A stretch of 64,000 bases of DNA from Mycolicibacterium porcinum. Its GTDB lineage: Bacteria > Actinomycetota > Actinomycetes > Mycobacteriales > Mycobacteriaceae. The stretch spans positions 186,001 to 250,000 of the forward strand of contig MVIG01000002.1 in NCBI GenBank assembly GCA_002086835.1, read 5' to 3'. Every line of letters begins with the position of its first letter. The first letter of the stretch is position 1. The notes under the pieces are model-generated. The model had not been told where the DNA came from. It did not search any database and was given only the letters and a program-made list of their open reading frames with translations. The position numbers and the translations under genes were made by a program. Positions 19,324 to 41,960 of the stretch are shown here, piece by piece.

Positions 19324-19339
19324 TGACAGTGAACTGCCA
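19324..19339. promoter_or_regulatory. Operator motif A, site A1
   Basis: TGACAGTGAACTGCCA, 33 bp before the AveC-like gene start. On the minus strand it reads TGGCAGTTCACTGTCACAGT, the same extended form as sites A3 and A5, with the TGGC end facing the gene. Confidence 0.65.
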
Positions 19340-19372
19340 TCTTTGGTAGGTCGTCGCCAAAGGAGGCGTTCA

Positions 19373-20416
19373 GTGACCGATGTTGCCAGCCGCGGGACGG
19401 TCGATGAGACGGCCGCACCGGCTCCTGTTCAAATCAAGACACTGCGACCCGTGCTGTTCTGGTCGAGTGTGGGCGCCGTCTGTGTAGCGGTCGCCGCGTA
19501 CGTCTATCTGTCGTGGATCGTCTCGGGCAATGCGGCGCCAGTCGATCCGGGTCCCGATGCGATCCCCGGCGGTACCCGGCTGGCGATCGCAGTATTCCAA
19601 ATTGCCTGCCCCATACTGGCTTTCGTCGCGATCGTCTACGTCGTCCGCAAAAGTCTGCGGGAACGGCAGCTGTGCGTCGAGGCCGCTGTCGTGATCGGGT
19701 CGGCCATCGCCTGGTGGCATGACCCGCTGATCAACTGGTTCCAGCCCGTGCTCTTCTACAACGCGGGTCTGGTCAATTTCGGCAACTGGATGGAGAACGT
19801 CCCCGGCTCGCTCAGCCCGGGAAGCCGGTTGATGGCCGAGCCGGTTTTGATGATCGGGATGATCTACATCTGGATGCCGTTGACCATGGGATCGCTCGCT
19901 CGGTGGGCCATGGGCCGGGCGCGACAGTCCTGGCCGACTTTGGGACCCGTCCGTACGTTCTGTTGCGGATGGCTCGCGGTATACGTAATCGAGTTCCCGC
20001 TGGAGATCTTCGCGGTGCACCACGGCTTGGTCGCGTACCCGGCCTCGATACCCGGCGCCACGCTGTGGGCCGGGCAGACGGTGCAGATTCCGCTCTACGG
20101 TCCCATCCTGTGGTCACTGGTGCTCAGCTCGAGCGGCGCGTTGATGTTCTTCCGCAACCGCAAAGGTCAGATCCGGGTGGAGGCGGGCATCGAGACGCTG
20201 CGCTGGGCCGGGCCATCGGTCAAGGCGCTGTTACGGGTTTTGGCGGTCACCGGCTTCCTGCATGTGGTCGCGATCGGCGCGTACGACCTGCCGGTCAACC
20301 TCGCCGGCCTCTACGCCGGACCGACCGACACCTACCCGAGCTATCTGCGCACACAGTACTGCGGCCCGGACACTCCACGGGCCTGCCCCGACGGCACGCG
20401 CTTCGAAGATCCCTAA
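19373..20416 (+). CDS. Polytopic membrane protein, spirocyclase AveC-like family
   Basis: 347 residues from GTG 19373, behind AAAGGAGG. At least six hydrophobic segments can be read: about 27-50 (VLFWSSVGAVCVAVAAYVYL), 67-90, 100-115, 155-175, 195-215 and 235-255 with one later. Short conserved-looking loops (AWWHDPLINWF, NFGNWMENVPG) hold polar residues typical of the actinobacterial AveC-like family. AveC itself works in avermectin spiroketal formation; function in mycobacteria is unknown, so the family call is by recognition only. It is first in a run of genes with operator A. A membrane-bound cyclase/dehydratase or a transporter-like role are both possible. Confidence 0.7.
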   Translation: MTDVASRGTVDETAAPAPVQIKTLRPVLFWSSVGAVCVAVAAYVYLSWIVSGNAAPVDPGPDAIPGGTRLAIAVFQIACPILAFVAIVYVVRKSLRERQLCVEAAVVIGSAIAWWHDPLINWFQPVLFYNAGLVNFGNWMENVPGSLSPGSRLMAEPVLMIGMIYIWMPLTMGSLARWAMGRARQSWPTLGPVRTFCCGWLAVYVIEFPLEIFAVHHGLVAYPASIPGATLWAGQTVQIPLYGPILWSLVLSSSGALMFFRNRKGQIRVEAGIETLRWAGPSVKALLRVLAVTGFLHVVAIGAYDLPVNLAGLYAGPTDTYPSYLRTQYCGPDTPRACPDGTRFEDP

Positions 20417-20422
20417 ACCTCG

Positions 20423-21013
20423 CTATTTCAGCACGGCGGGCAGTGCGGCGAACTCCTGGCGTACCAGGTCATCGAGGGCGCGTCCCGGCGCAGCCAACCA
20501 TTGATTGAGGGCCCGCTCGACGAGCAGCATTCCGATCGATGCCAGAAGGTGGCATTCGCTGTCCGGCGAGGGTAGGCGGCGGCGGTCAGCGATCACCTTG
20601 GCCACGGTCTCGGCATTGGCTTCGTGGTTCCTGCGCTCGCGGCCTAACAACACCAGCGAGGACGCGACGGCTTCGTGGTACTGCGCAATACGCTTGCGAA
20701 TACGCTTGAGACTGGGTGCAAGCAACGCGAACGAGTTGGCCATCGCCTCGAAATCGGATACCTCTTCGGGCTGGGCGAGGTAGACGCCGCTCACCGCATC
20801 GATGAAGTCGTACTCACCGAAGAACAACACCGACTCCTTGGTCGGGAAGTACCGGAAGAAGGTTCGCGGGGAAACACCTGCGCTCTCGGCGATCTGATCG
20901 GTGGTCGTCTCGTCGTAACCATTGGCGCTGAACAGGTCCAGCGCGGCTTCCAACAGGGCATTGCGCACGCGGTCGGCATGCTCGACTCGCGGTGAACGGT
21001 CGCCCCGTGCCAT
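20423..21013 (-). CDS. TetR family regulator, candidate binder of operator A
   Basis: 196 residues. HTH at about 36-60: TTDQIAESAGVSPRTFFRYF, then PTKESVLF. ALLEAALDLFSANGYDETT is the standard helix 1. It ends with LVERALNQWLAAPGRALDDLV. Divergent from the P450 at 21184; the only strong palindrome in the 170-bp gap is an operator A copy (21114-21137). It converges with the AveC-like gene, 6 bp apart. The usual TetR logic suggests it represses itself and the operator A genes; this is inference. Confidence 0.87.
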   Translation of the reverse strand: MARGDRSPRVEHADRVRNALLEAALDLFSANGYDETTTDQIAESAGVSPRTFFRYFPTKESVLFFGEYDFIDAVSGVYLAQPEEVSDFEAMANSFALLAPSLKRIRKRIAQYHEAVASSLVLLGRERRNHEANAETVAKVIADRRRLPSPDSECHLLASIGMLLVERALNQWLAAPGRALDDLVRQEFAALPAVLK

Positions 21014-21113
21014 CCGCCAACCTCCTCGGCCATCTCAGGTTCCTGAGATTACAACGACAGCAGCATTCGCTACATCGTTGACACCCACCGTCGTGCTGAC
21101 GATACTTACTTCA

Positions 21114-21137
21114 AGTATGACAGTCTACTGTCATACT
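21114..21137. promoter_or_regulatory. Operator motif A, site A2 (near-perfect 24-bp palindrome)
   Basis: Arms AGTATGACAGT (21114-21124) and ACTGTCATACT (21127-21137) pair perfectly over 11 bp around CT. It lies 46 bp before the P450 start and 100 bp before the TetR start. Confidence 0.8.
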
Positions 21138-21183
21138 CTATCCGAGACGCCGGTCGGCGTACGAAGAGAGGATTCCCGCCCCG

Positions 21184-22368
21184 ATGACTGAGCTCGGCGT
21201 GACTGGAACCGCCAACATCAACGATCTGCCATTCGCCCAGGACAGGTCGCGTGCTTGGCGGGAGCTGCGAGAGGCCGGGGAAGCGGTCAAGTCGGGTGAG
21301 GAGATCGTCCTGACCAGCGCCGCGGCAGTGGAGTTCGCCGCAAAACGCCCCGACATCTTCTCCTCGGCCCGGGCCTTCGATCGACTGGGCAGCCCTGTAC
21401 CGCTGATTCCGATCGCGATCGATCCGCCGGACCACACCCGGTTCCGCCGCATGCTGGATCCCTTCTTCAGCCCGAAGAAGATGGCCGAGCGTGAGGCAGA
21501 ACTACGCCGCCAGGCCGGCGAGTTGATCGATGCGATCGTGGCAGCGGGAGAATGCGACGTTGTTCCCGACCTCGCCACACCGTTTCCCTCCCAGGTGTTT
21601 CTGACGCTGTTCGGATTGCCCATGGCGGACCGCGACCGGTTGGTGCGGTGGAAAGACTCGATTCTGCAGTTCACCGATCCGAGCAGCGCCGAAGCGACTC
21701 CCGAGGTGCTGGCCCACGCGATGGAGCTGTTCGCCTATCTGACCGATCACATCGCCGAGCGGCGCGGCGACACCACCGGCAGCGACATGCTCAGCCAACT
21801 GATGCGGGACACCGAAGGAGGCATGTCGGACAACGAAATCCTCGGGCTGTGCTTCATGTTCGTGTTGGCGGGTCTCGACACAGTCACCTCGGCGGTGGGA
21901 TTCTCGTTGGCCAAGCTGGCCGGTGATGCCGACCTACGCCGAAGGATCAGCGCCGATTTCTCGCTGATTCCCGCCTTCATCGAGGACATCCTGCGCGTCG
22001 ACGGGCCCGTCCCGTTCGCGCCGCGGGTCACTACCGAAGCGGTCGAGATCGCCGGAAGGACCGTGCCGAAGGACACCACCGTGATGCTCAGTTACGGAAG
22101 TGCCGACCGCGATCCGAGCCGCTACGAGGATGCTGACGAGGTCCACCTCGACGACAAGGTGGTGCACTTCGCATTCGGTCGTGGGCCGCATCGGTGTCTG
22201 GGTTCACACCTCGCCCGTCTGGAACTCCGACTCATCCTCGAGGAATGGCACAATCGGGTACCCGAATACACGCTGGCCGATGGCAAGGATCCGCAAATGC
22301 CTTGGCCCACAGGGACAATGGGATTGCAATCGGTGCCGCTGAACATCACGCCCGCATATCTTGGCTAG
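21184..22368 (+). CDS. Cytochrome P450 (paralogue of the P450 at 6580)
   Basis: 394 residues. I-helix LAGLDTVTSAVG, EDILRV as ExxR, haem loop FGRGPHRCLGSHLAR with Cys338. ARAFDRLGSPVPLIPIAIDP and the C-terminus GTMGLQSVPL parallel the 6580 protein. Divergent from a TetR gene and controlled by operator A2 by position. No ferredoxin is adjacent on this strand; the ferredoxin and reductase at 25627-27026 could serve it. Its stop overlaps the stop of the convergent TetR gene by 4 bp. Confidence 0.93.
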   Translation: MTELGVTGTANINDLPFAQDRSRAWRELREAGEAVKSGEEIVLTSAAAVEFAAKRPDIFSSARAFDRLGSPVPLIPIAIDPPDHTRFRRMLDPFFSPKKMAEREAELRRQAGELIDAIVAAGECDVVPDLATPFPSQVFLTLFGLPMADRDRLVRWKDSILQFTDPSSAEATPEVLAHAMELFAYLTDHIAERRGDTTGSDMLSQLMRDTEGGMSDNEILGLCFMFVLAGLDTVTSAVGFSLAKLAGDADLRRRISADFSLIPAFIEDILRVDGPVPFAPRVTTEAVEIAGRTVPKDTTVMLSYGSADRDPSRYEDADEVHLDDKVVHFAFGRGPHRCLGSHLARLELRLILEEWHNRVPEYTLADGKDPQMPWPTGTMGLQSVPLNITPAYLG

Positions 22369-27026: not shown

Positions 27027-27053
27027 AGTCTCAGCTCCTTCGTCTTTATAAAT

Positions 27054-27066
27054 AAACTAAGTTTAG
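27054..27066. promoter_or_regulatory. TAAACT-A-AGTTTA palindrome before the ferredoxin operon
   Basis: A perfect 13-bp palindrome in an AT-rich stretch of the 242-bp gap (27027-27268); I see no gene in the rest of that gap. It lacks operator A, so this operon may answer to another regulator, possibly the TetR at 22365. A related TAAA...TTTA dyad is at 43400-43420. Confidence 0.5.
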
Positions 27067-27268: not shown

Positions 27269-28084
27269 TCAACGAACAGCGAAGCCGGCGTCCAGTGGCC
27301 ACGTGATACCGGTGATGAACTTCGCTTCCTCGGACACCAGGAAGGCGACGGCACCCGCGACGTCCTCGGGCATCAGCATCGGGATGGGAAGTACGTTCTG
27401 CATGGCCTCAATCGCGACGTCGCCCGCTTCGAGCAGCTTTCCCATCGCCTCGTTCATCACCATCCCGGTGGCGACGCCAGTCGGGTGGATGGTGTTGACG
27501 CGGATGGAGTACTTGCCGAGGTCGTTGGCCCACACTTGCATCAATCCGACGATTCCCCGCTTCGCGGCCGCGTAGGCCTGCCCGCCGGCCCTGTCGGTGC
27601 CGGTGGCTTTGAGCCCGGCGCTGGAACTGGTGATGACGATGGAGCCACCTCGCCCGGCGTCGATCATCGTGGGCAGCGCTGCGCGCACGGTGTTCCACAC
27701 ACCGGTCAAGTTGACGTCGACAATGTCGCGGAATACCTGCCGGTCGTCTGCGCCGGCGCCGAGTCGGATGATGCCCGCGTTCGCCAGCACGATGTCGACG
27801 CGCCCGAAGTCCGCGACGCCATCGGCAAGTGCGGTCTCCACCGCGTCGCCATCGCGCACATCGGCTTGGCGGGCGACGATGCGTCTACCTTCACCCTCGA
27901 CGAGTTTGACGGTTTCGTCCAGGTCGGAAGGTGTGGCATTGGGATAGTCCATTGATTCGATATCGGCGCAGAGGTCGAGGGCGATGATGTCGGCGCCGTC
28001 GGCGGCCAGGCGCACCGCGTGGGCACGGCCCTGCCCGCGGGCGGCGCCGGTGATGAACGCGACCTTGCCGTCGAGGTTTCCCAT
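27269..28084 (-). CDS. SDR oxidoreductase, mycofactocin-coupled type
   Basis: 271 residues. FITGAARGQGRAHAVRLA is the insertion-bearing cofactor motif of this subgroup, followed by IIALDLCADIESMDYPNATP, LANAGI, TSSSAGLKATG, the catalytic Tyr/Lys in GQAYAAAKRGIVG, and a C-terminus WPLDAGFAVR. Members bind nicotinamide cofactor tightly and rely on mycofactocin to regenerate it; alcohols and carveol-like terpenols are typical substrates. It is divergent from the PEP-utilising gene, and operator A3 faces it. Confidence 0.9.
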   Translation of the reverse strand: MGNLDGKVAFITGAARGQGRAHAVRLAADGADIIALDLCADIESMDYPNATPSDLDETVKLVEGEGRRIVARQADVRDGDAVETALADGVADFGRVDIVLANAGIIRLGAGADDRQVFRDIVDVNLTGVWNTVRAALPTMIDAGRGGSIVITSSSAGLKATGTDRAGGQAYAAAKRGIVGLMQVWANDLGKYSIRVNTIHPTGVATGMVMNEAMGKLLEAGDVAIEAMQNVLPIPMLMPEDVAGAVAFLVSEEAKFITGITWPLDAGFAVR

Positions 28085-28194: not shown

Positions 28195-28210
28195 TGGCAG
28201 TCAACTGTCA
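28195..28210. promoter_or_regulatory. Operator motif A, site A3
   Basis: TGGCAGTCAACTGTCA, followed directly by CAGTCAAC as an additional half-site. The TGGC end faces the SDR start at 28084 (110 bp away). It shares its intergenic region with site A4. Confidence 0.7.
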
Positions 28211-28283: not shown

Positions 28284-28299
28284 TGACAGTTGACTGTCA
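28284..28299. promoter_or_regulatory. Operator motif A, site A4
   Basis: TGACAGTTGACTGTCA, a perfect palindrome flanked by A and T (ATGACAGT...ACTGTCAT), ending 32 bp before the ATG of the PEP-utilising protein. Confidence 0.8.
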
Positions 28300-28331
28300 T
28301 AAAGGTTCGGGCGCCAAAGTTCAGGAGGATC

Positions 28332-30994: not shown

Positions 30995-31603
30995 TTACTC
31001 GTCCAGCCCGGCGTCGGCCTCGTCCGCGCGAGTCAGCCCGGCCGCGCCGATGAGTTCTTCGTGCAGTTCGAACCACACCGTGTGATACGAGTCGACCAGC
31101 GGTCGGGTGAACCAGCTGGTGTCTCCGGCCCGTATCCGCTCCAGCGCCGCGGACAACTTATCGGTGTAGGCGTCCAGGCGCGGAAGCTGTGCGGCGACAG
31201 CGGCCAGAATGGGCAGCACCGCGCGGTGAACGTCGTCGAGCCGACACAGCACCGCCGCGTCGTGATCAGGGTCGGTGTGATCGTTCGGCTCGCCGTTGTT
31301 GAGCTGCCAGTCCGATACCAGCGACTTGAAATCGCGGTTCACACTGCGGAACTCCGCATATGACCGCATGATCGTGTCACCGTCGAGGTCGTGCCGTTCG
31401 ACGGCGAGCAGCTCGGTCAGACGGGCTCGCCCGGCGGGGGATAATCGGACGGTCGAGCCACCGGCCACCAGGTCCGCCCCGGTGAGCTGCTGGACTGCCG
31501 AATTCACTGTGGCCTCGTCCTCGTCGAGCGTGGCGGCGAGCGCCGCAGGCCGCACCCGCCCCTTGAGCCGAACGGCCTGCAGCACTGTCAGCTCATCCAT
31601 CAT
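30995..31603 (-). CDS. Winged-helix (MarR-like) regulator-type protein coupled to PpdK-like gene
   Basis: 202 residues from ATG 31603, with GGAG 5 nt upstream. ATG 31600 and 31627 are alternatives. An N-terminal winged-helix reads ELTVLQAVRLKGRVRPAALA, then LDEDEATVNSAVQQLTGADLV and RLSPAGRARLTELL as the wing. The rest is helical (DVHRAVLPILAAVAAQLPRL, WFTRPLVDSYHTVWFELHEEL) and could be a dimerisation or sensor domain. It overlaps the PpdK-like gene by 11 bp and is the third gene of the LLM - PpdK-like - HTH operon. Function as a DNA-binding regulator is inferred from the fold only. Confidence 0.68.
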   Translation of the reverse strand: MMDELTVLQAVRLKGRVRPAALAATLDEDEATVNSAVQQLTGADLVAGGSTVRLSPAGRARLTELLAVERHDLDGDTIMRSYAEFRSVNRDFKSLVSDWQLNNGEPNDHTDPDHDAAVLCRLDDVHRAVLPILAAVAAQLPRLDAYTDKLSAALERIRAGDTSWFTRPLVDSYHTVWFELHEELIGAAGLTRADEADAGLDE

Positions 31604-33251
31604 CGGATCTCCGGTACTGGTCGGCAAGCTGGATCGCGGTCAGCATGGCGACCAGCGGTCTGTCGCAGACCACGTCGGTTCGGCCGCTTGCCAATGCGTC
31701 GCGCACCTCGGCCGTGTCCGCGTCGGTGAGCACCGGATGTGTACCGGTGGCATGGGCCCGCAAGGGGCTGACGCTGTGGGCGAGTGCGGCCAGCGCAGTG
31801 AGGTCGGGGTGGTCGCGCTCGGACCACGCCGTCAACTTCAGGGCGCCTTCCCGCACCTCCCCCTCGCCTCCGTCGACCGTGACCACCTTGCCATCGAGAG
31901 CGGCGGCCACGCCTGCGCCACAACCCACCACGGCAGGTCGGCCGAGTTCGCGGCTCACCACGGCGGCATGGGAGGTGGTGCCGTCGAGTTCTGTGACGAT
32001 GGCGCGGGAGGCCATCATCCCGGCGACGTCATCCGGGCTGGTCGAGGTGCGGACCAGGATCACGTCCTCACCTGCGTCGGCGGCATCGAGCGCGTCATCG
32101 ATGTCTACATAGGCCGTGCCCGATGCGATGCCCGGGCCGGCCGGCAAACCACTGGCCAACAGCTTTGCCGCCAAACGTGTTTCGGGTTGAAGTGCGGGGG
32201 ACAGTAATGTGCGGACCTGCTCGGGGGTGACCCGTCGTACTGCTTCGGCGTCGTCGATGAGACCGGCGCCGCGGAACTTGAGCGCCAGGCGGACGGCGGC
32301 CTGCGGGGACCGCTTCGCCACACGGGTCTGCAGCAGCCACAGCCTGCCGGCCTCGACCGTGAACTCGATGTCCTGAACGTCACGATCCAGCTGTTCAAGT
32401 TGGTCCGCTGCCGCGATCAACTCGCTGAAGACCCGTGGCTGCGCGGCGCGCAACGCATCAAGTGGCAGGCAGTCGGAGGTGCCCGAGACCACGTCCTCGC
32501 CCTGGGCTCCGGGCAGCCATTCGCCCAGCGGTTCGTCGGCGCCTGTGGCCGGGTTACGGCTGAACAGGACCCCGGTGCCCGAGTCTTCGCCGAGGTTGCC
32601 GAACACCATCGCCTGCACCACCACCGCGGTACCCGCGTTGTCGGCCAGGCCCTGATGAGCGCGGTAGGCCTCGGCGCGCGGGCTGTGCCATGACGCCAAC
32701 ACTGCTTCGATGGCGCCGCGAAGCTGGACGAACGGGTCGTCTGGGATTACGGCGGATGCGTCCGCGCCGAGCACGATTCTGCGGTACATCGTCTGGAACC
32801 GGGAGCGGGTGTCGGCGGCGAATCCCGGTGGGGTGTGTGCGGCCAGTGACCTTTCGACCTCGTCGTCGAGTCCGAGGTCGAGCACCGTGTCCAGCATGCC
32901 CGGCATCGACTGCGCAGCACCCGACCGGACGCTGAGCAGCAGGGGCCGCGGGCCGTGGCCGAACGTACGTGAGGTCTCGGCCTCGAGCCGGCAGAGCTTG
33001 TCGAGCACGTCGGGCCATATGCGATCCAGGACGTCCTCATCACCTGCCATCAACGCCGCGCACACGTCGGTGGATACACAGAATGCAGGAGGTACGGGTA
33101 GCCCGAGGCCTCGCATCAGGTTGATGCCGAAGCCCTTGTTGCCGAGGGTGTTACGTGACCCACGCGCGCTACCGTCGAGCAGGACTACGTAGTCCTCGTC
33201 GAGATGCGGTACGGCGCCGACATCGGAGGTTGTCCCCGCATTCGGCCGCAT
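31593..33251 (-). CDS. PpdK-like protein: PEP/pyruvate-dikinase ATP-grasp plus swivelling His domain
   Basis: 552 residues. The ATP-grasp start NKGFGINLMRGLGLPVPPAF lies near 38-57, with the dikinase signature LLLSVRSGAAQSMPGMLDTV near 103-122. QDIEFTVEAGRLWLLQTR ends the nucleotide domain, and the swivelling domain carries ELDGTTSHAAVVSRELGRP with His428. The C-terminal PEP/pyruvate TIM barrel of full dikinases (about 870 residues) is missing. M. tuberculosis Rv1127c (PpdK) is similarly short. It can in principle move phosphate from ATP to its His, then to an acceptor that is not necessarily pyruvate. Its ATG abuts the stop of the LLM gene (TAA-ATG). Confidence 0.83.
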   Translation of the reverse strand: MRPNAGTTSDVGAVPHLDEDYVVLLDGSARGSRNTLGNKGFGINLMRGLGLPVPPAFCVSTDVCAALMAGDEDVLDRIWPDVLDKLCRLEAETSRTFGHGPRPLLLSVRSGAAQSMPGMLDTVLDLGLDDEVERSLAAHTPPGFAADTRSRFQTMYRRIVLGADASAVIPDDPFVQLRGAIEAVLASWHSPRAEAYRAHQGLADNAGTAVVVQAMVFGNLGEDSGTGVLFSRNPATGADEPLGEWLPGAQGEDVVSGTSDCLPLDALRAAQPRVFSELIAAADQLEQLDRDVQDIEFTVEAGRLWLLQTRVAKRSPQAAVRLALKFRGAGLIDDAEAVRRVTPEQVRTLLSPALQPETRLAAKLLASGLPAGPGIASGTAYVDIDDALDAADAGEDVILVRTSTSPDDVAGMMASRAIVTELDGTTSHAAVVSRELGRPAVVGCGAGVAAALDGKVVTVDGGEGEVREGALKLTAWSERDHPDLTALAALAHSVSPLRAHATGTHPVLTDADTAEVRDALASGRTDVVCDRPLVAMLTAIQLADQYRRSDDG

Positions 33252-34172
33252 TTATCCGACCTTGGGGATGATCTCCTCAGCCACCCACTGCATGTGGTCG
33301 AGGTAAGCGTTGAAGTCGTTCAAAGGTGGGGGATTGACCCAGGTGTCGGTGACGCCACGTTCGGCGAGCATGTTGCAGTTGTCGATGACCTGCTGAGCGC
33401 TCTGGCCGAATTGCGCGTTGGGGTCATCGACTATGGCGTGCTGCTGGCCGATGGACAACACCGCGAGGCTGTAGAACACCGAGAAGGGCCGGTCATCGAA
33501 ACCCGGTTGGGACCGCAGGTAGTCCAGCTTGGCGGGTAGCTCGTCGGGTTTGGTCAGCCACGGCGCCCAGCCATCGCCGAAGCGGGCCGCCCGGCGCAGT
33601 ACCGCATCGGCGTCTCCACCCATCCACAACATCGGATGGGGTCTGGAAATCGGCTTGGGGCCGAAGGCGATGTCGTCGAATGTGACGAACTCTCCGTCGA
33701 AACTCGGTGAATCGTTGTGCCACAACTCAAACATGGCTTCGAGGTACTCGTCGGTCATCCGGCCCCGCTTGTTGAAGGGGACGCCGATGGCATCGTATTC
33801 CTCCTTGAGCCAGCCGACGCCGACGGTGGTCTGCGCGCGACCGCCGCTGAACCAGTCGAGCGTCGCGATCTGCTTCGCGGCGACGATCGGGTTGTGCAAC
33901 GGGAGGATGGTGACCATCGACCCGATGGTGATGGTCGACGTGGCACCGGCAATATAGGCCTGCGCGGTGGTCGCGTCGAAATAGTGATCCCCGGAGAGTT
34001 CGACATGGGATGCCGGGGTGAAGAAGTGCTCGGGCAGGAAGACCATCGAGTAGCCCAACTCTTCGGCCCGCTGCGCCACGTGGGCGATATCCCGCCCGCC
34101 CAGGTCGTGCTCCCAGGGTTGGGTGATGGCGGCCACGTGCATGCAGTTGGGCAGATAGACAGTGAATCGCAT
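33252..34172 (-). CDS. LLM class, probably F420-dependent, oxidoreductase
   Basis: 306 residues from ATG 34172, behind GGGAG. Bacterial luciferase-like TIM barrel: MVFLPEHFFTPASHVELSGD, TITIGSMVTILPLHNPIVAA, LDWFSGGRAQTTVGVGWLKE and PHPMLWMGGDADAVLRRAAR, followed by GDGWAPW. This layout is that of F420-dependent mycobacterial LLM proteins rather than two-component FMN monooxygenases. Hydride transfer to or from an alcohol, ketone or enoyl group is likely. First gene of the operon leading into the PpdK-like protein and the HTH gene, with site A5 84 bp upstream. Confidence 0.88.
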   Translation of the reverse strand: MRFTVYLPNCMHVAAITQPWEHDLGGRDIAHVAQRAEELGYSMVFLPEHFFTPASHVELSGDHYFDATTAQAYIAGATSTITIGSMVTILPLHNPIVAAKQIATLDWFSGGRAQTTVGVGWLKEEYDAIGVPFNKRGRMTDEYLEAMFELWHNDSPSFDGEFVTFDDIAFGPKPISRPHPMLWMGGDADAVLRRAARFGDGWAPWLTKPDELPAKLDYLRSQPGFDDRPFSVFYSLAVLSIGQQHAIVDDPNAQFGQSAQQVIDNCNMLAERGVTDTWVNPPPLNDFNAYLDHMQWVAEEIIPKVG

Positions 34173-34256: not shown

Positions 34257-34272
34257 TGGCAGTTGACTGTCA
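34257..34272. promoter_or_regulatory. Operator motif A, site A5
   Basis: TGGCAGTTGACTGTCA, followed by CAGTCAAC as in A3. It lies between the divergent LLM (34172) and acyl-CoA synthetase (34322) genes, with the TGGC end towards the LLM gene. Confidence 0.72.
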
Positions 34273-34321: not shown

Positions 34322-35938
34322 ATGATGTCTGGCATGGAAGTTGTCCCGGCCCGGTTTGACCACGCCGTTCTGGGTGACCGGTGGTACCGCGAGGGTTGGT
34401 ACTCCGAGCGCACCCTCATCGACGCCCTGGCGTTCGGGGCAGCCGAACATGGTGATGTTCCTGTGGTTTTCGTCGCCGACGGTGTCGAAACCACCACGAC
34501 GCCGGTGGAAATCCTGCGGCAGTCGCAGGAGGTAGCCGCCGGCCTGCAGCGGCTGGGTGTCGGAGTCGGTGATGCGGTAGCGGTGCAGTTGACCAACCGG
34601 CTGGAGTGCGCCGTCGCTTACGAGGCAGTGTTGATGTGCGGAGCCACCCTGGTACCGATCATCCACATTTACGGTCCCAGCGAGGTGGGGTTCATATTGG
34701 CCGAGTCGGGGGCAAAGGTGCTGATCATGCCCGCCCGGTTCCGGTCAGTGTGCTACCTCGACCGGGTAGGCGAGTTCTCGACGATTCCCACGCTGCAACA
34801 GGTGGTGGTTGTCGACGCAGCACCCGGCGAGGGCTATCTGGCTTGGCCGCCACTGTCCGGTGACCAATACCGACGTCCAGCGCCGTCGGCCGATGACGTC
34901 GCAGTATTGATCTACACCTCAGGCACCACTTCGGCTCCCAAAGGGGTTCAGCACAGCCACAATTCGATGCTCGCCGAGCAACAGACCCTGCCCGACCTCG
35001 TGAGTCGAGGCGACGACGTGGTCCAGCTGGTTACCTTTCCGCCGGGCCATATCGCGGGGGTGGGAGCTCTACTGCGGCCGCTGATCTCCGGGGCATCCTC
35101 GGTCTTCATGGATGGTTGGGATCCCGCGACCGCCGTCGACTTGATCCACCGGCATCGGGTATCGGCCACTGCCGGTACGCCGTTCCACCTGGAAGGGTTG
35201 CTTGACCTCGGCGACACCGGTGAGAGGCTGGCCAGTCTGCGGGAATTCCTCGTCGGAGCGGCCACCGTTACAGAGGATCAAGGCCGGCGTGCGGCCGCAG
35301 CCGGAATCAATACCTACCGGTGTTACGGCTCCACCGAGCAGCCCACCATTACCGCAGCCCGGTCCTACGATGCGGCCCCGGCTCGGATGGGCACCGACGG
35401 GAAGCCGATGCGCGGCGTGACGGTGCGGATCGTCGGCCCGGACGGCAGTGAACAAGCGGCCGGTACCGACGGCGAGATTGTCACCCGGGGGCCGGACCAG
35501 TTCATCGGCTACCGAGACCCGGCTCTCAATGAGGCTGCGTTCACCGCCGACGGCTGGTTCCGAACCGGCGATCTGGGGCATCTGGACACCAACGGACGGT
35601 TGACCATCACCGACCGCATCAAAGACGTCATCATCCGCGCCGGTGAAACCATTTCCTCCGGACAGGTCGAGGACGTTCTCAACGCACATCCCGCGATCGC
35701 TGAGGGCGCCGCAGTCGCCGCGCCACATCCGCGCTACGGCGACGTGGTTGCCGCAGTGGTGGTCCTCAAGCCCGGAGCCGCAGTGGATCTCGACGAACTG
35801 CGTGACCATTTCGCCGCGTCGGGCCTCGCTAGACAGAAGACTCCGGAGCGGCTGGCGATCGTCGATGCGCTGCCCCGCACCTCGATGGGGAAAGTCCGCA
35901 AAGCCGAACTTCGCAGGGAGCACTTCGAGCGTCCGTGA
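34322..35938 (+). CDS. Acyl-CoA synthetase / AMP-dependent ligase
   Basis: 538 residues from ATG 34322; 34325 and 34334 are also possible. AMP-binding motif LIYTSGTTSAPKGVQHSHNS near 198-217, YRCYGSTEQPT, GWFRTGDLGHLD, ITDRIKDVIIRAGE, and the C-terminal catalytic Lys in PRTSMGKVRKAELR. It activates a carboxylic acid to its CoA thioester at the expense of ATP, feeding the tandem dehydrogenase at 37030. The frame is open back to 34172, but that stretch contains operator A5 and lacks family features. Confidence 0.9.
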   Translation: MMSGMEVVPARFDHAVLGDRWYREGWYSERTLIDALAFGAAEHGDVPVVFVADGVETTTTPVEILRQSQEVAAGLQRLGVGVGDAVAVQLTNRLECAVAYEAVLMCGATLVPIIHIYGPSEVGFILAESGAKVLIMPARFRSVCYLDRVGEFSTIPTLQQVVVVDAAPGEGYLAWPPLSGDQYRRPAPSADDVAVLIYTSGTTSAPKGVQHSHNSMLAEQQTLPDLVSRGDDVVQLVTFPPGHIAGVGALLRPLISGASSVFMDGWDPATAVDLIHRHRVSATAGTPFHLEGLLDLGDTGERLASLREFLVGAATVTEDQGRRAAAAGINTYRCYGSTEQPTITAARSYDAAPARMGTDGKPMRGVTVRIVGPDGSEQAAGTDGEIVTRGPDQFIGYRDPALNEAAFTADGWFRTGDLGHLDTNGRLTITDRIKDVIIRAGETISSGQVEDVLNAHPAIAEGAAVAAPHPRYGDVVAAVVVLKPGAAVDLDELRDHFAASGLARQKTPERLAIVDALPRTSMGKVRKAELRREHFERP

Positions 35939-35979
35939 CGAGGTGTTCGTCGCCGCCGAGGGCTGCGGTCAGTCGTTGA

Positions 35980-36001
35980 CTATGACAGTCAACTGTCATA
36001 G
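35980..36001. promoter_or_regulatory. Operator motif A, site A6 (perfect 10-bp arms)
   Basis: Arms CTATGACAGT (35980-35989) and ACTGTCATAG (35992-36001) around CA. It ends 41 bp before the ATG of the first gene of a five-gene operon. Confidence 0.82.
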
Positions 36002-36042
36002 TGTCGCTGGTAGCACTGGCCGACCCGAAAGGCGTGTTTTCA

Positions 36043-36408
36043 ATGGCTTCAAACCTCTTCGTTGTGCTGACCAACCCGATCGAGGGTGAGGACACGGCAT
36101 TCAACAAGTGGTACGACACGCAGCATCTGCCAGAGGTCCTGGACGTTCCCGGGGTCGTGGCGGCCCAGCGGTATGACATCGCAGAACTGACGGTCCCGGA
36201 TGACCAGGATCTGCCGGCGCAGCTACCGCCGGCCACGCACCGCTACATGGTGATCTACGAACTGGACGGCGAACCGGAGTCGGTGATGGCGGAGTTCCTG
36301 AAACGGGTCATGGCGGGCACCCTCACGCTGGGGGAATGGCTGGATCTGAGCACCGTTTCTCTCACTGGATGGACACCGCGTGGTGAACGTGTAGCGGCGT
36401 CGCGCTGA
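36043..36408 (+). CDS. Dimeric alpha/beta-barrel (EthD-like) protein
   Basis: 121 residues from ATG 36043. The frame is open from GTG 36001 (135 residues), which touches the operator. FVVLTNPIEGEDTAFNKWYD, then TQHLPEVLDVPGVVAAQRYD and MVIYELDG, match small ferredoxin-like-fold proteins of the EthD/DUF4286 kind that accompany catabolic oxygenase or dehydratase genes. No catalytic residue can be named. First gene of the operon 36043-40758. Confidence 0.72.
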   Translation: MASNLFVVLTNPIEGEDTAFNKWYDTQHLPEVLDVPGVVAAQRYDIAELTVPDDQDLPAQLPPATHRYMVIYELDGEPESVMAEFLKRVMAGTLTLGEWLDLSTVSLTGWTPRGERVAASR

Positions 36409-37016
36409 TGGGAGACCTGCTTACCGGTATTGCGGCGCAACGCGCGTGCCGGCGCTTCGATCCGACCGGAGCTGTGCCCGACGCAGACATCGAGCAGATG
36501 CTCACCGCAGCCGTCCACGCACCGAGCGCGGAGAACACGCAGCCTTGGACATTCATCGTGGTCCGCGACGCGCAGAGTCGAAAACTGCTCGCAGATTGGT
36601 GGACTGAGACCTGGAACGGCGGCGGTGGTGACTTCGTCAAGCAGAGCCTTGACGACAAGGTGCTCGTTGCAGATCTCGAATACGGGTTCGCCAAAGGCGG
36701 ATTCGCAGCAGCGCCGGTCGTCGTGGTGGTGTGCGCCGATATCGAGCGGGTCGCCGAGATCCATGCACCGTCTTCGATCTACCCGGCCGTGCAGAACCTG
36801 CTGCTCGCCGCCAACGACCTCGGTTACGGATCATGCCTGACCACCGGACTGACCACATTCGGCATCGACCGGGTGCGTGAACTGCTGGCGCTGCCCGCCA
36901 CCCTCAATCCGATGGCCGCGGTTTATGTGGGTCAACCCAGCAAGAAACTTTCACCGCCCCGTCGTCGCCCGGCCACGTCGGTGACCTACCGCGAGCGGTT
37001 CGGGACACCCTGGTGA
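36408..37016 (+). CDS. Nitroreductase family FMN oxidoreductase
   Basis: 202 residues; ATG overlaps the previous stop by one base (TGATG). RACRRFDPTGAVPDADIEQM is the FMN-binding N-terminus with the Arg motif, followed by HAPSAENTQPWTFIVVRD; SSIYPAVQNLLLAANDLGYG and the C-terminal FMN contact VYVGQPSKK complete the family. Members use NAD(P)H to reduce nitro groups, quinones or enones. Within an acyl-CoA operon, reduction of a conjugated ketone is plausible. Confidence 0.88.
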   Translation: MGDLLTGIAAQRACRRFDPTGAVPDADIEQMLTAAVHAPSAENTQPWTFIVVRDAQSRKLLADWWTETWNGGGGDFVKQSLDDKVLVADLEYGFAKGGFAAAPVVVVVCADIERVAEIHAPSSIYPAVQNLLLAANDLGYGSCLTTGLTTFGIDRVRELLALPATLNPMAAVYVGQPSKKLSPPRRRPATSVTYRERFGTPW

Positions 37017-37029
37017 CGAGAATGGAGAT

Positions 37030-39186
37030 ATGTCAATGGCATTGGCGATAGCCGAGGATCATCGCGCGCTCGCTGAGGTGGCCGGCGCGATGGTGGCCGG
37101 GCGCGGTGGCGTTGCCGGCGCCCGCCGGATTCTGCTCGGGCCTGACACCGTCGGAAGGTGGTGGACCGAAGACGGACTGTGGAAAGAAATCGTGTCCGCC
37201 GGGTGGCTCGGCCTACACATCGACGAGCAGTACGGCGGCCAGGGCTATGGACTGCCCGAGCTGACCATCGTGCTGGAGCAACTCGGACGCGCAGCAATCG
37301 GCGGCCCGTTCCTGCCCACTGTCGCAGTGTCGGCGGTGATCGCCGAAATCGGCACCGACGAGCAGCGCAGGCATTGGCTGCCCCAGCTGGCGTCCGGTGA
37401 CATTGTGGCCGGCATCGGCACCAAGAGTGATGCGGCTGTTGCAGATTCGCGCGTCACAGCCCTCGCGGTACCTACCCTGGCTGAGGCGGCCGCCGACGTG
37501 TTCCTTTTGCCGGTGGGCGATGATCTCGTGCTGGTCCGATCCGGTGACGGGGTGAGCACGCGGAATATCGATTCGGTCGACCTGCTCCTAAGGCCCGTCA
37601 CCGTGGTCAGCCTCGCGTCGGCTGAGATCGCTGAGGTGTTCCCCGGCGCTGCGGCGGCGGCCGCCCGCCTCATTCGCCTGCTGGCCGCAGCGGAGGCGGT
37701 CGGCGGACTCGGCGCCTGCACGGAGATGGCCACCGGGTATGCCGCGGCCCGTGAGCAGTTCGGCCGGCCCATCGGCTCTTTTCAGGCGGTCAAACATCAT
37801 TGCGCCAACATGCTGGTCGACACGGAGTTGGCGGTGGCAGCGACCTGGGACGCCGCCCGAGCCGAAGGCGCGGAGGCCGAACTGGCGGTGGGGATGGCCG
37901 CCGGGCACGCCCTGGCCGCCTACCAGCGGGTGGCGCTGCTGAACGTCCAGGTACACGGCGGGATCGGCTACACCTGGGAACACGACGCCCACCTCTATGT
38001 CAGGCGGGCGACGGTGCTGCAGACCTTTGCGGGTGACCAGGAGGCGCTGCGCGACCGGGTTGTCGAGTTGCAGGTCCACGGAGTGCGGCGGGGTCACTCC
38101 GTGGACCTGCCCCCCGAGGCCGAGCAGTACCGGCAGGCGGCGAACGACTTCCGCGCCGAAGTCGAGGCTGCCGACGCCGAGAGCGCCCAGAAGCTCTGGG
38201 CGCGCAGTGGATACCTGCAGCCCCACTGGCCCGAACCATACGGTCGCAACGCCGACAGCACCGAGCAGTTGATTATCGAGGAAGTTCTCGATGGCGTCGA
38301 CAAACCCAGCCTCGGCCTCGGCGAATGGGTGGTGCCGACGCTGCTGCAGCATGGCAGCGCCGAACAGATCGAGCGGCTGATGTGGCCGAGCCTGGAGGGC
38401 GAGGTGCGGTGGTGTCAGCTCTTCAGCGAGCCCGGCGCCGGATCCGATGCCGCGGCGGTGGCCACCAAAGGCCGCCGCGTCGACGGTGGCTGGGTGGTAA
38501 CGGGTCAGAAGGTGTGGACCAGCGATGCGGTGAACTGCCAGCGTGGACTCGCCACCGTGCGTACCGATCCAGATGTCCCCAAACACAAGGGCATCACCGC
38601 GATGGTGATCGACCTTGCCGATCCGGCGGTGCAGATCCGCCCGCTCACCGAAATCACCGGTGAGACGTTGTTCAACGAGGTCTTTTTCGATGACGTGTTC
38701 GTCCCCGATCGCGATGTGGTCGGCGCGGTGAACGCGGGCTGGGGCGTGGCGATGGCGGCGTTCGGCAACGAACGCGTATCGATAGGCGGTGGGTCCGTCA
38801 CGATGACTGCCGACGCGTTGATCGATCTGCTGACAGCGCACCGCCCTGGTGACACTGGCCTGGCGCGCGACGTCGGTGCGCTGCTGATCGAGGCATACAC
38901 GCTGGCGGCGTTGAACCTGCGGCAGGCCGCCCGGGCGGTCTTCGACTCCGGACCCGGCATCGAGGGCAACATTGCCAAGCTCTTCGGTGCCGAACACGCC
39001 CAAAGGGTCGCTGAACTCGCGCTGCGACTTGCCGGACCGGCCATCCTTATCGGCGAGGAGCCCGCCGTCGTGCACGACTACCTGTTCAGCAGGTGCCTGA
39101 CGATTGCAGGCGGCACGTCGGAGATCGTCAGAAACCTCATCGCAGAACGCATTCTCGGGTTGCCGCGCGATCCGGCGCCCAGGTAG
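37030..39186 (+). CDS. Tandem acyl-CoA dehydrogenase (two fused modules), paralogue of 14679
   Basis: 718 residues. Module 1: EQYGGQGYGLPELTIVLEQL, EQFGRPIGSFQAVKHH, HGGIGYTWEHDAHLYVRRA. Module 2: CQLFSEPGAGSDAAAV, VTGQKVWTSDAV, FNEVFFDDVFVPD, CLTIAGGTSEIVRNLIAERI. In module 2 the MCAD-type catalytic Glu position (IYEGT) reads IAGGT, so the base must be elsewhere or in module 1. The layout is that of mycobacterial FadE34-like enzymes for steroid-type side chains. A minus-strand frame of 582 codons runs through it and is a shadow. Near the middle of the operator A6 operon. Confidence 0.9.
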   Translation: MSMALAIAEDHRALAEVAGAMVAGRGGVAGARRILLGPDTVGRWWTEDGLWKEIVSAGWLGLHIDEQYGGQGYGLPELTIVLEQLGRAAIGGPFLPTVAVSAVIAEIGTDEQRRHWLPQLASGDIVAGIGTKSDAAVADSRVTALAVPTLAEAAADVFLLPVGDDLVLVRSGDGVSTRNIDSVDLLLRPVTVVSLASAEIAEVFPGAAAAAARLIRLLAAAEAVGGLGACTEMATGYAAAREQFGRPIGSFQAVKHHCANMLVDTELAVAATWDAARAEGAEAELAVGMAAGHALAAYQRVALLNVQVHGGIGYTWEHDAHLYVRRATVLQTFAGDQEALRDRVVELQVHGVRRGHSVDLPPEAEQYRQAANDFRAEVEAADAESAQKLWARSGYLQPHWPEPYGRNADSTEQLIIEEVLDGVDKPSLGLGEWVVPTLLQHGSAEQIERLMWPSLEGEVRWCQLFSEPGAGSDAAAVATKGRRVDGGWVVTGQKVWTSDAVNCQRGLATVRTDPDVPKHKGITAMVIDLADPAVQIRPLTEITGETLFNEVFFDDVFVPDRDVVGAVNAGWGVAMAAFGNERVSIGGGSVTMTADALIDLLTAHRPGDTGLARDVGALLIEAYTLAALNLRQAARAVFDSGPGIEGNIAKLFGAEHAQRVAELALRLAGPAILIGEEPAVVHDYLFSRCLTIAGGTSEIVRNLIAERILGLPRDPAPR

Positions 39187-39199
39187 ATCGGAGAACAAC

Positions 39200-40336
39200 A
39201 TGACCTGTGCCGTCGTCGGTATCGGACGCACGCAGTACTCACGCAAGTCCGGTCGCACCACCCGAGCGATGGCGGTGGCCGCGTGTCGTGACGCCATCGC
39301 CGATGCGGGTCTCACCCCTGCCGACGTCGACGGCATCTGTACCTACATGGCCAACGACTCCGAGCAGCCGATCTTCGTCGGCTGGGCACTGGGGATCGAC
39401 GAGTTGGCATGGGCCAACGCCATGTACGGCGGCGGGAACCTGGTGGCTGACCAGATCGCCACGGCCGCCGCCGTGATCGAGGCCGGGATGTGCAAGGCGG
39501 TGCTGGTATACCGCTCGCTCAACGGGCGTTCCGGCTATCGTTTCGGCCACATCGAAGGGCCGATGCAGGTGCCCCACCATGACCAGTTCGACACCGCATC
39601 GGGCTTCATGGTGCCCCCGCAGTGGTTCGCCATGTGGGCCCGCCGACATCAGCACGAATACGGTTCTACATCAGAGGATCTCGGCCAGATTGCCATCACT
39701 CAACGTGCACATGCCGGCCCCAACGACCACGCGCTGCGCCGCGAACCGCTGACCATGGACGACTACCTCGCCGCCCGGTGGATCAATGAGCCGTTCCGGG
39801 TGCTGGACTGCACGTCGGAAGTCGATGGCGCGGTGGCCATCCTGATCACCGGCGAGGACATCGCCCGGGACTGCAAGCAGGACCCGATGTGGCTGGTCGG
39901 ATCGTCGAACTCCCAGGGGGGAGCGGGCTGGACGGAATGGGACGATCCCACCGAGATGTATTCGCGCACCGCCGGTCCGAAGATCTGGGCGAGGACGGGC
40001 CTGACGCCGGACGATATGGATGTGGCGTGCATGTACGACTGCTTCACCTACACCGTGATGGCCACCATGGAGGGGTTCGGCTTCTGCGAGAAGGGTGAGG
40101 TGGGCAAGTTCTTCGCCACGGGTCGTGCCACCTATGGCGGCGACGTGGTGGTGAACCCACACGGGGGCCTGCTGTCCGAGGGGTATATCCACGGTCTCAA
40201 CCACCATTACGAGGCGGCGGTGCAGCTACGCCATGCCGCCGGCGTGCGTCAGGTCGACAACGCGCAACTGGCGCTGGTCACCGCGGGTGGGGGACCGTTC
40301 GGTGGGGCCAATGTCTACAGCAGGGAGAAACCATGA
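39200..40336 (+). CDS. Thiolase-like / lipid-transfer-protein-type acyltransferase
   Basis: 378 residues from ATG 39200, behind GGAG. N-terminal VVGIGRTQYSRKSGRTTRAM, then CRDAIADAGLTPADVDGICT; the catalytic area is MYGGGNLVADQIATAAAVIE, where the nucleophile Cys of true thiolases is not evident. PHGGLLSEGYIHGLNHHYEA supplies the conserved C-terminal His, and LALVTAGGGPFGGA closes. SCP2-thiolase-like proteins of this type pair with DUF35 proteins and act in retro-aldol or thiolytic side-chain cleavage (Ltp2/ChsH2-type complexes). It overlaps the following DUF35 gene by ATGA. Confidence 0.86.
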   Translation: MTCAVVGIGRTQYSRKSGRTTRAMAVAACRDAIADAGLTPADVDGICTYMANDSEQPIFVGWALGIDELAWANAMYGGGNLVADQIATAAAVIEAGMCKAVLVYRSLNGRSGYRFGHIEGPMQVPHHDQFDTASGFMVPPQWFAMWARRHQHEYGSTSEDLGQIAITQRAHAGPNDHALRREPLTMDDYLAARWINEPFRVLDCTSEVDGAVAILITGEDIARDCKQDPMWLVGSSNSQGGAGWTEWDDPTEMYSRTAGPKIWARTGLTPDDMDVACMYDCFTYTVMATMEGFGFCEKGEVGKFFATGRATYGGDVVVNPHGGLLSEGYIHGLNHHYEAAVQLRHAAGVRQVDNAQLALVTAGGGPFGGANVYSREKP

Positions 40337-40758
40337 CATCAACCGCGGCGACGAGTCCTACACTTCTGCCACCGATTCCGGTACCTGACCCCGATACCGC
40401 GCCGTACTGGGAGGCGCTGAAGAACGGCACGTTGATGCTGTGCCGTTGCGACGACACCGGCAAGTGGATCCATCCACCGTTGGAGCGCAGCCGCTACACC
40501 GGCGGCCCTGTGCATTTCGAGGAGGTCAGCGGCGAAGGCACGGTGTTCAGCTACATCGTGGTGCGCCAGGCACTCGTGCCGGGCCGCGTACCGCCCTACG
40601 TCGTCGGGCTGATCGAGCTCGCCGAACAACCCGGACTGCGGATCAACGCCGTCATCGACGCCGATCCTGCGGACGTACGAATCGGTCAACAAGTCAGGTT
40701 GCGCATCGCCGAGCTCGGGGAAAGTGGCTACCGCATACCCGAATTCGTCCCCAATTAG
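40333..40758 (+). CDS. OB-fold (DUF35) protein with a degenerate zinc ribbon
   Basis: 141 residues. APYWEALKNGTLMLCRCDDT is the entry helix and first knuckle, but the second CxxC knuckle is replaced by HPPLERSRYTGGPV, so zinc binding is probably lost. The OB-fold GTVFSYIVVRQALVPG and PPYVVGLIELAEQPGLRINA is intact. Overlaps the thiolase-like gene by ATGA, the usual genetic linkage of an Ltp/DUF35 complex. Last gene of the A6 operon. Confidence 0.83.
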   Translation: MTSTAATSPTLLPPIPVPDPDTAPYWEALKNGTLMLCRCDDTGKWIHPPLERSRYTGGPVHFEEVSGEGTVFSYIVVRQALVPGRVPPYVVGLIELAEQPGLRINAVIDADPADVRIGQQVRLRIAELGESGYRIPEFVPN

Positions 40759-40791
40759 TTCCGCGAGCACACGCAAGGCAGGTGAGACGGG

Positions 40792-41918
40792 CTAGGCAGT
40801 GAGCAGCGCGCCGGTACCCAGATCGGAATAAGCCTCGGCGAATCGGCCCAACACCGCCTGCACGACCTCTACGGAGTACATCTGGTCGGGCGTGATCGCC
40901 CACATGCAGAATCCCCACGCCGGGCTTTGACGGTAGGCGGTCCACATCTGCTCACGGTCCGGTCCGGTGCGGACACGACACCAGCTTCGGTCAGTCGCGC
41001 CCGGTAGTTGTCGAGCAGTTCACGCTCGTGGCTGCGCCGGAGCTCGGGCGGCAGCGCGCCGATCAACGCGTAGCCGACATCATGTGACCACGAACCTCGA
41101 CGAACCAGTTGCCAGTCGAGGACCCCCATCTGACCGCCCGGCAGTGTGTAGGTGTTGCGCGGATGCGGGTCGCCGTGCAGCAATGTGACCGGACCGGCGG
41201 CGACGGAGGCCTGCAACGCCCAGAACGCCGCTTCCATGGAGTCTGCGTCCTCGCCCGCCGCGTCAAGCAATTCCTTCTTGTACGGAATTTCCAGAAATGC
41301 CCGGATGATCTGGAAACCGTTGGTGCGCAGGAACTGTGCGAATCCTCCGGTCTGGGGATGCTGCAGCCAGGCCAGATCGCCTTCCTCGCGTAGCCGCGGA
41401 CTTTCCCAAAATGGCGCATGCACTCTGCTCAACGTCGCCAACAACTGATCGGCTTGTTCCACGGAGAGACCGGCGACCGCGTCGGGCACCCGGGCGCCTC
41501 GCAGGGTGATGTCCTCGCCGACCACCAGGAACTGGGACGGACCGTCGAGGTGGTCGGCGAAGTAGGTCGTCATGGTCTCGACGTCGAGATCGTTGCGCAG
41601 GTCGCGGTAGAACCTCGTCTCGTCGTCCAGCAGCACGGTACCGCCGCCGCCCTCCGACAGCGACTCGTCTACCGAGGCAGGCAGATTGTGCACAGTACTC
41701 AACTGTGTTTTTACGAAAAGCTGTCGAGGCAGACCGTTTTCGGGCGAGTCGTAGTCGACGTCGAGGTGCAGGTGAGAGGTGGTCCCCTGCCAGGTCCTCC
41801 GTACCCGGATATCGGTGACGGTCACACCGGGATGGGATTGACGCAGCAGGGAGGTCAACATCTGGGGTGTCAGGTCGTCGGGGGATCGCAGGGTCACAGG
41901 TAAGGCTTGGCTCGTCAT
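40792..41918 (-). pseudogene. APH/choline-kinase-like phosphotransferase, frameshifted by a 5-bp duplication
   Basis: The frame from ATG 41918 (GAGG upstream; 41924 also possible) encodes LLHGDPHPRNTY (HxDxxxxN catalytic loop) and GVLDWQLVRRGSWSHDVGYA, as in the aminoglycoside-phosphotransferase family. After VVSAPDR it runs out of frame to a stop at 40869. GGTCC is repeated in tandem at 40956-40965. Removing one copy restores EQMWTAYRQSPAWGFCMWAI and a normal C-terminus ending at 40792-40794, about 375 residues. As written, roughly 53 native C-terminal residues are lost. The kinase core is intact, so partial activity or a sequencing error cannot be excluded. Operator A7 is 26 bp upstream. 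Confidence 0.82.
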
Positions 41919-41944
41919 CGGCATCCTCGTTCAAGCGTCAAACA

Positions 41945-41960
41945 TGACAGTCAACTGTCA
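41945..41960. promoter_or_regulatory. Operator motif A, site A7
   Basis: TGACAGTCAACTGTCA, a perfect palindrome apart from the centre, 26 bp before the phosphotransferase start on the minus strand. It is the last operator A copy in the window. Confidence 0.8.

Follow-up and report, generated by a model that had tools for sequence, protein, structure and literature searches.

A recurrent palindrome and a TetR-family protein as predicted operator and candidate repressor of a catabolic gene cluster in Mycolicibacterium porcinum

A gene cluster with seven predicted operators

The DNA analysed here, called the window below, is a stretch of 64,000 nucleotides of Mycolicibacterium porcinum (assembly GCA_002086835.1, contig MVIG01000002.1, positions 186,001 to 250,000 of the forward strand). 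It contains a cluster of genes for an AveC-like protein, a cytochrome P450, a mycofactocin-coupled short-chain dehydrogenase/reductase (SDR), two phosphoenolpyruvate (PEP)-utilising proteins, an LLM class oxidoreductase, an acyl-coenzyme A (CoA) synthetase, a five-gene operon that begins with the small protein orf36043, and a kinase of the APH fold. Seven copies of one palindrome, predicted to be operators, lie among these genes, together with the gene of a TetR-family protein (TetR 20423, or TetR1) that we propose as the repressor binding them (Table 1).

Table 1. Features of the cluster: positions in the window, distances from site to gene start, and supporting remarks
Feature	Position	Strand	Remarks
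Operator 1	19324..19339	+	before AveC-like gene; -35 TTGACA at 19315-19320
AveC-like protein, predicted target	19373..20416	+	PF17198 (open reading frame (ORF) 19343-20416); site 33 bp upstream
TetR1, proposed regulon repressor	20423..21013	-	TetR_N, TetR_C_14; co-occurrence with sites; relatives outside the genus with site; site 104 bp upstream
Operator 2	21118..21133	.	between TetR1 and P450; TTGACA 21078-21083 faces P450
Cytochrome P450, predicted target	21184..22368	+	PF00067; CYP143 closest among solved chains; site 50 bp upstream
Mycofactocin-coupled SDR, predicted target of operator 3	27269..28084	-	NF009467 and TIGR03971 above cut-off; site 110 bp upstream
Operator 3 ("extended form")	28195..28210	-	-35 TTGACT 28217-28212, TATCGT 28194-28189, minus strand
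Operator 4	28284..28299	+	before PEP-utilising gene; recurs there in other genomes
PEP-utilising mobile domain protein, predicted target	28332..29963	+	PF00391 (ORF 28290-29963); site 32 bp upstream (by coordinates)
DUF7065 protein, PEP-utiliser operon	29960..30961	+	PF23213
210-aa protein, downstream of PPDK	30995..31627	-	no Pfam or NCBIfam match
Pyruvate phosphate dikinase (PPDK)-like protein, LLM operon	31593..33251	-	PF01326, PF00391; NF004531 811 bits vs cut-off 456
LLM class oxidoreductase, predicted target of operator 5	33252..34172	-	TIGR03619 (F420-dependent by name); site 84 bp upstream
Operator 5 ("extended form")	34257..34272	-	-35 TTGACT 34279-34274, TAGCGT 34256-34251, minus strand, facing LLM
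Acyl-CoA synthetase, control by operator 5 uncertain	34322..35938	+	PF00501; site 49 bp upstream
Operator 6	35983..35998	+	-35 TTGACT 35976-35981, -10 TAGTGT 35999-36004
orf36043, small protein, first of five-gene operon	36043..36408	+	recurs behind site in other genomes; site 44 bp upstream
Nitroreductase-family protein	36408..37016	+	PF00881
Fused tandem acyl-CoA dehydrogenase, ChsE-like	37030..39186	+	two acyl-CoA dehydrogenase domain sets
Thiolase-fold protein, Ltp2-like aldolase	39182..40336	+	6ok1_A best solved chain; Tyr285 (YDCF), Tyr335 (EGYIHG)
DUF35 partner (ChsH2 C-terminal type)	40333..40758	+	PF01796, PF12172
APH/EcKL-fold kinase (phosphotransferase), predicted target of operator 7	40869..41918	-	PF01636, PF02958; HGDPHPRN, LDW motifs; site 26 bp upstream
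Operator 7	41945..41960	-	touched by TANNNT (TAGTGT, 41965-41960, minus strand)

A preliminary description of this DNA, made from its letters, had reported the seven sites with at most two differences, 26 to 110 bp before gene starts and outside coding regions, as parts of a large regulon. The sites are indeed at these places with 0 or 1 mismatch to TGACAGTNNACTGTCA, and the measured distances agree. The comparative set holds 187 sites at up to one mismatch, and none falls inside a homolog of a cluster gene, a count that covers the genes with a homolog in the window gene set. Exact matches to TGRCAGTNNACTGYCA in the whole genome of 6,960,672 bases number seven, all of them these sites, against none for the backward control and about 0.06 expected per genome from the base composition of the window. 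When one mismatch was allowed, the genome gave 10 places and the backward control 5, indicating that beyond the seven sites the genome is at background. Within the window, nine matches were found at up to three mismatches (the seven, 34270 and 60234); shuffled sequences gave a mean of 1.84, and 0 of 100 shuffles reached nine. The regulon is confined to one 23-kb cluster: the part of the earlier claim that spoke of a single regulon is supported, and its extent is local to the cluster and not genome-wide. Position 3 of the palindrome is a free purine, the operator having the 16-bp form TGRCAGT-N2-ACTGYCA; among 138 exact sites of fetched cluster regions, positions 3/14 are A/T in 78, G/T in 28, A/C in 21 and G/C in 11.

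In the cluster regions fetched from other genomes, sites recur before the AveC, LLM, PEP-utiliser and APH kinase genes, before the five-gene operon, and between TetR1 and the P450. This recurrence before the same genes in other species supports the view, already expressed in the preliminary description, of one regulon and one likely pathway. Not every genome holds every unit of the cluster, and the sites follow the genes and vanish with them: in G241, G260 and G062 the PEP-utiliser is absent and the LLM and orf36043 sites adjoin each other. The SDR at operator 3 was found in two genomes only (G000 and G176). In G292 and G185 the PPDK gene, followed by the homolog of the 30995 gene, stands behind its own site, so that these two genes look like targets.

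Position of the operator in its promoters

We compared the promoters of orthologous genes, expressing the position of each box as an offset from the operator, oriented on the gene. At orf36043, TTGAC stands at -7 in 33 of 35 orthologs and TANNNT at +16 in 33 of 35; the two boxes are thus separated by exactly 17 bp, the length of the operator plus one base. At LLM, TTGAC stands at -8 or -7 (28/30 orthologs), and at AveC it stands at -9 (25/26). At the APH kinase gene, TANNNT at -5 touches the operator in 18 of 19 orthologs, while in 24 of 25 P450 promoters TTGAC is found at -38 to -40, which places the operator just past the promoter. Evident promoter boxes were not found in the sequence on the acyl-CoA synthetase side of 34257. 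This gene had been listed among the targets; its site lies 49 bp upstream of it, but control of the gene by operator 5 is, with no evident boxes, unproven.

The preliminary description had also distinguished clean palindromes from an extended form whose TGGC end always faces the controlled gene. Read on the opposite strand, the extension (CAGTCAA, following the palindrome) is a -35 box, and the TGGC end faces the gene because this extension is the predicted -35 hexamer of the promoter on that side. Judged from these alignments, the two forms reflect promoter architecture; the orientation is thereby explained, and a separate type of operator is not needed, position 3 being a free purine. The extended form was also considered as a second, overlapping operator occupied by two dimers, an idea modelled on the arrangement at QacR. 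This candidate was rejected, because the orthologous LLM and orf36043 promoters keep the TTGAC offset and often not the second half-site. The promoters at 28195 and 34257 align around the operator, which suggests that one of the two arose by duplication.

The candidate repressor and its rivals

The distribution of TetR 20423 orthologs (E up to 1e-30) was compared with that of the sites in a sample of 297 genomes of the genus. Of these, 79 hold one or more exact sites and 29 hold three or more; the backward control never occurred more than once per genome. The ortholog was found in 31 of the 297 genomes, including 29 of the 29 with three or more sites, and no multi-site genome of the sample lacks it. 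In the remaining two carriers, G098 and G223, the best copy is more diverged than in any other carrier (66% and 71% identity), and they hold one and two sites, respectively. Fisher's test gave 3e-38; since the sample consists of related genomes and the cluster passes on as one block, this value serves as a guide only. In G020, G085, G101, G241, G243 and G273, additional copies of the TetR, the most diverged at 58-60% identity, stand close to sites (up to one mismatch). The N-terminal domain of TetR 20423 is a helix-turn-helix of the TetR_N type (PF00440, 61.1 bits for a cut-off of 24) followed by TetR_C_14, and the predicted operator lies between TetR1 and the P450, 93-109 bp from TetR1 in the ortholog rows compared. 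In G086, an exact site precedes a short stretch (L216:8171-8480) 63% identical to part of TetR 20423 over 41 residues, which looks like a remnant TetR copy.

The association extends beyond mycobacteria. In a scan of named genomes, from which the best 80 loci were taken, all 24 loci with a TetR of at least 57% identity carry a site (up to one mismatch). Most of them were already in the genus set; four others, at 57-59%, belong to Williamsia muralis, Williamsia limnetica, Pseudonocardia parietis and Actinocorallia populi. In both Williamsia and in Pseudonocardia the sites are near homologs of orf36043 (49-53%), the aldolase (77-81%) and the DUF35 protein (58-65%), and in Pseudonocardia also near homologs of the nitroreductase, LLM, SDR, AveC, P450 and fused dehydrogenase; in Actinocorallia the site is beside a 39% homolog of orf36043. 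The backward control gave none in 28 of these loci. A relative of 48% identity (L160) has no site. Among the matches listed, TetR loci occur in the named species M. peregrinum, M. scrofulaceum, M. triplex and M. europaeum. A search of 397 genomes from the order (E up to 1e-45) detected the TetR in two, each a member of this genus; the distribution of the cluster is patchy. In Nocardia, three loci combine a distant relative of the TetR (35-46%) with a site some 1 kb ahead of it, the spacing being nearly equal in all three (L176:6972, L180:6956 and L200:6970, the last with one mismatch).

Two other palindromes were noticed in the window. A perfect one, TCTCAGGTTCCTGAGA (21033-21048), stands before the start of TetR 20423; it was considered as an autoregulatory site and set aside, as it was not seen in the correctly oriented TetR promoters, a partial check covering about half of 35 rows. 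The other, TAAACTAAGTTTA (27053-27065), lies upstream of the ferredoxin gene (26838-27026, minus strand). Its consensus TRAACTTAGTT is conserved upstream of the ferredoxin-reductase-P450-TetR 22365 operon in the four genomes compared, G000, G176, G290 and G020. It may be the operator of TetR 22365, and that operon seems to be separately controlled.

The half-site itself is common to several TetR lineages. Of the 30 loci that the site search returned, 11 belong to TetR1 clusters or genomes, and the other 19 are isolated sites. In 16 of these 19 the site directly precedes a different TetR gene; these genes form two lineages, B and C, similar to TetR 20423 only over 53-60 N-terminal residues. The spacer is GT/AC in 10 of 10 lineage B loci, a spacer rare in cluster sites (2/138). 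Lineage C has TGACAGTTGACTGCCA, with the spacer TG/CA, in all nine of its loci (six isolated sites of the 19, and three fetched), and in those six a P450 on the other side is 35-37% identical to the second P450 of the window. The three remaining isolated sites are L017 (in G098, the carrier of the 66% TetR, before an orf36043 homolog), L032 and L034. A matrix scan of the kind proposed in the preliminary description, when extended across genomes, also finds these two further TetR lineages, and the common half-site calls for caution when mycobacterial regulons are predicted from motifs. At the one lineage B locus checked (L221:5386-7179), the TetR gene has one TGACAGTGTACTGTCA site and a divergent sulfotransferase gene; lineage C TetR genes beside TGACAGTTGACTGCCA are found at L218:6030-6743, L219:7020-7733 and L220:6853-7506.

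Our preferred interpretation, to which we assign a probability of about 0.83, is that TetR 20423 is a dedicated repressor of this patchily distributed catabolic cluster, its binding being predicted from sequence. The basis is the seven sites, their fixed position with respect to promoter boxes across species, and their co-inheritance with the TetR gene. Several observations weigh against it. The cluster genes are inherited together, so that co-occurrence alone cannot single out one protein, and the occurrence of lineages B and C beside the same half-site means that the motif alone does not identify its regulator. Among the more distant TetR relatives of the best 80 loci, just 3 of 55 have a site (up to one mismatch); the search for relatives used the helix peptide RTFFRYFP as one pattern, and this helix alone does not predict a site. 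The promoter pattern is uneven as well: TANNNT at +16 occurs in just 15 of 30 LLM promoters, a clear TANNNT after the operator was not found in the AveC promoters of 26 orthologs, and the orthologous PEP-utiliser promoters compared have no consistent boxes. Finally, no MaoC domain was found among the window genes scanned with Pfam, the rest of the genome not being searched, and lacking such a hydratase the side-chain route described below is incomplete as annotated.

The joint inheritance of the cluster genes would also allow TetR 20423 to be a passenger, the seven sites being bound by TetR 22365, by the product of the 30995 gene or by an unlinked protein. The 30995 gene has homologs in 28 of the 31 regulon genomes; however, they are also present in 15 of 30 genomes without the TetR, they lie away from the cluster in most regulon genomes, and Pfam finds no recognised DNA-binding domain in the protein. 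TetR 22365 is present in 5 of the 31 regulon genomes and has its own conserved palindrome upstream of its operon. Both were rejected as the common binder, and since TetR 20423 stands near the site in Williamsia, Pseudonocardia and Actinocorallia too, we regard a passenger role as quite unlikely. The earlier choice of TetR 20423 as the best candidate binder is thus upheld by co-occurrence, by the non-mycobacterial relatives and by the failure of both other local candidates as common partners. It is also unlikely that TetR 20423 and lineages B and C form a shared network and cross-regulate each other's targets. The position of the B and C genes directly beside TGRCAGTNNACTGYCA sites and their constant spacers would fit such a network, but this genome has no exact site outside the cluster, hence no B or C operator of that sequence to share, and the rarity of the GT/AC spacer in cluster sites hints at separation.

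Activation instead of repression appears very improbable: some TetR-family proteins do activate (FasR is a named activator in NCBIfam), but an operator placed between -35 and -10, touching -10 or past the promoter suits a steric block. Least credible of all would be duplicated promoter pieces devoid of regulator function. The alignment of the 28195 and 34257 promoters does indicate that some copies arose by duplication; against this, the palindrome is kept while spacer and flanks vary, with different offsets per promoter class, across species and genera.

If TetR 20423 is the repressor, its dimer would bind the palindrome at seven promoters. The operator would fill the -35/-10 spacer at the orf36043 operon, LLM and SDR, with only the -35 side visible at AveC; it would touch -10 at the APH gene and lie just past the promoter at the P450. 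The bound protein would block RNA polymerase until released by a pathway intermediate, perhaps a CoA thioester or an oxidised substrate.

The predicted mode of action is KstR-like. According to the available text of PMC1995591, KstR (Rv3574), regulator of a mycobacterial cholesterol/lipid regulon, is a TetR repressor with many palindromic sites with a 2-bp centre, an operator overlapping promoter boxes, and lipid-type catabolic targets that include acyl-CoA dehydrogenases. The KstR motif, TnnAACnnGTTnnA in the same text, differs from TGRCAGTnnACTGYCA, the KstR model gives TetR 20423 a score of 25.5 bits (cut-off 280), and the regulon here is one local cluster with seven sites, patchy in the genus. 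The best NCBIfam match of TetR 20423 is MftR (TIGR03968), with which it shares the MftR-type C-terminal domain and a mycofactocin-coupled SDR as predicted target, yet its score is 73.1 bits for a cut-off of 224.9; by score the protein is neither KstR nor MftR. BkaR and other mycobacterial TetR regulators share the arrangement in which the TetR gene and a divergently oriented enzyme gene flank a palindromic operator. PMC4482099 analysed 30 conserved TetR genes; neither "TGACA" nor "ACTGT" was found in the main text of that paper, whose motif logos are figures. No description of the present operator was found in the literature searched on mycobacterial TetR regulons and on the cluster enzymes, subscription papers being mostly outside this coverage. 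The system has the look of an ordinary type of gene switch, though an undescribed one. The candidate regulator, its predicted operator and the list of predicted targets make the substrate of this oxidative gene cluster findable, through a compound that frees the repressor from its operator.

Enzymes of the cluster and the predicted pathway

The core operon resembles, by sequence, enzymes of sterol side-chain cleavage. Among solved chains, Tcur3483 (6wy9/6wy8), a ChsE subunit, is the nearest match to the C-terminal half of the fused dehydrogenase. For the thiolase-fold protein the nearest is 6ok1_A, whose partner is ChsH2(DUF35) 6ok1_B, and the best solved chains for the DUF35 protein are 9myr_B and 6ok1_B. 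Both Ltp2 catalytic tyrosines are kept in the 6ok1 alignment (YDCF in 30 of 30 orthologs, YIHG in 29 of 30); the histidine of YDHF is not kept, a Cys being found instead. The available text of PMC12329534 gives Tyr294 and Tyr344 as the catalytic residues of TcLtp2, YDCY for CtSal and YDCF for TbSLP. The fused ChsE-like dehydrogenase, the Ltp2-like aldolase and the DUF35 partner thus recall the igr-type operon (ChsE1-ChsE2, ChsH1-ChsH2, Ltp2) and the Sal/Shy systems. Unlike the igr type, the operon here has DUF35 alone, without a MaoC domain, includes the nitroreductase and orf36043, and is predicted to be under a different TetR and operator. No Pfam match was found for orf36043 at E up to 0.05.

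The P450 at 21184 has 8ckn and 8amo (CYP143) as its best solved-chain matches, with E about 1e-97. Of the two PEP-utilising proteins, the one at 28332-29963 has the mobile domain only and that at 31593-33251 has PPDK_N and the mobile domain; the former matches the C-terminal parts of the PEP synthase and rifamycin phosphotransferase profiles, below cut-off. The protein at 29960, called DUF7064 in the preliminary description, is assigned by Pfam to DUF7065. The catalytic motifs of the APH kinase are kept, and no solved chain matched it at E up to 0.01. In the available text of PMC12440821, APH-fold kinases act with acyl-CoA dehydrogenases on 4-hydroxyacyl-CoA, and the LvaA/LvaC and ACAD10/11 systems offer a parallel to the apparent co-regulation of kinase and dehydrogenase seen here. 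The present kinase differs in being a separate gene with its own operator, and it is likened to LvaA by description, not by sequence. By analogy, it may have a like role on a hydroxyacyl-CoA.

The pathway would oxidise a hydrophobic, perhaps alicyclic or isoprenoid-like compound by means of the P450, the mycofactocin SDR and the LLM enzyme. Formation of a CoA ester and dehydrogenation by the ChsE-like enzyme would follow, and then a retro-aldol cut of the side chain by the Ltp2-like/DUF35 enzyme; the APH kinase may phosphorylate a hydroxyacyl-CoA. It is possible, although on balance doubtful, that the cluster encodes an undescribed route of side-chain degradation that moves among mycobacteria and some few other actinobacteria. 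In this route the retro-aldol cut would be preceded by activation of a hydroxylated intermediate through the APH kinase and the PEP-utilising enzymes, and the TGRCAGT half-site would be a code common to at least three TetR lineages of the genus, which the central dinucleotide keeps distinct. None of the seven sites lies before the gene at 18038-18895, which codes for a LigB-type ring-cleavage dioxygenase (3-carboxyethylcatechol 2,3-dioxygenase family) and adjoins the cluster in many genomes.

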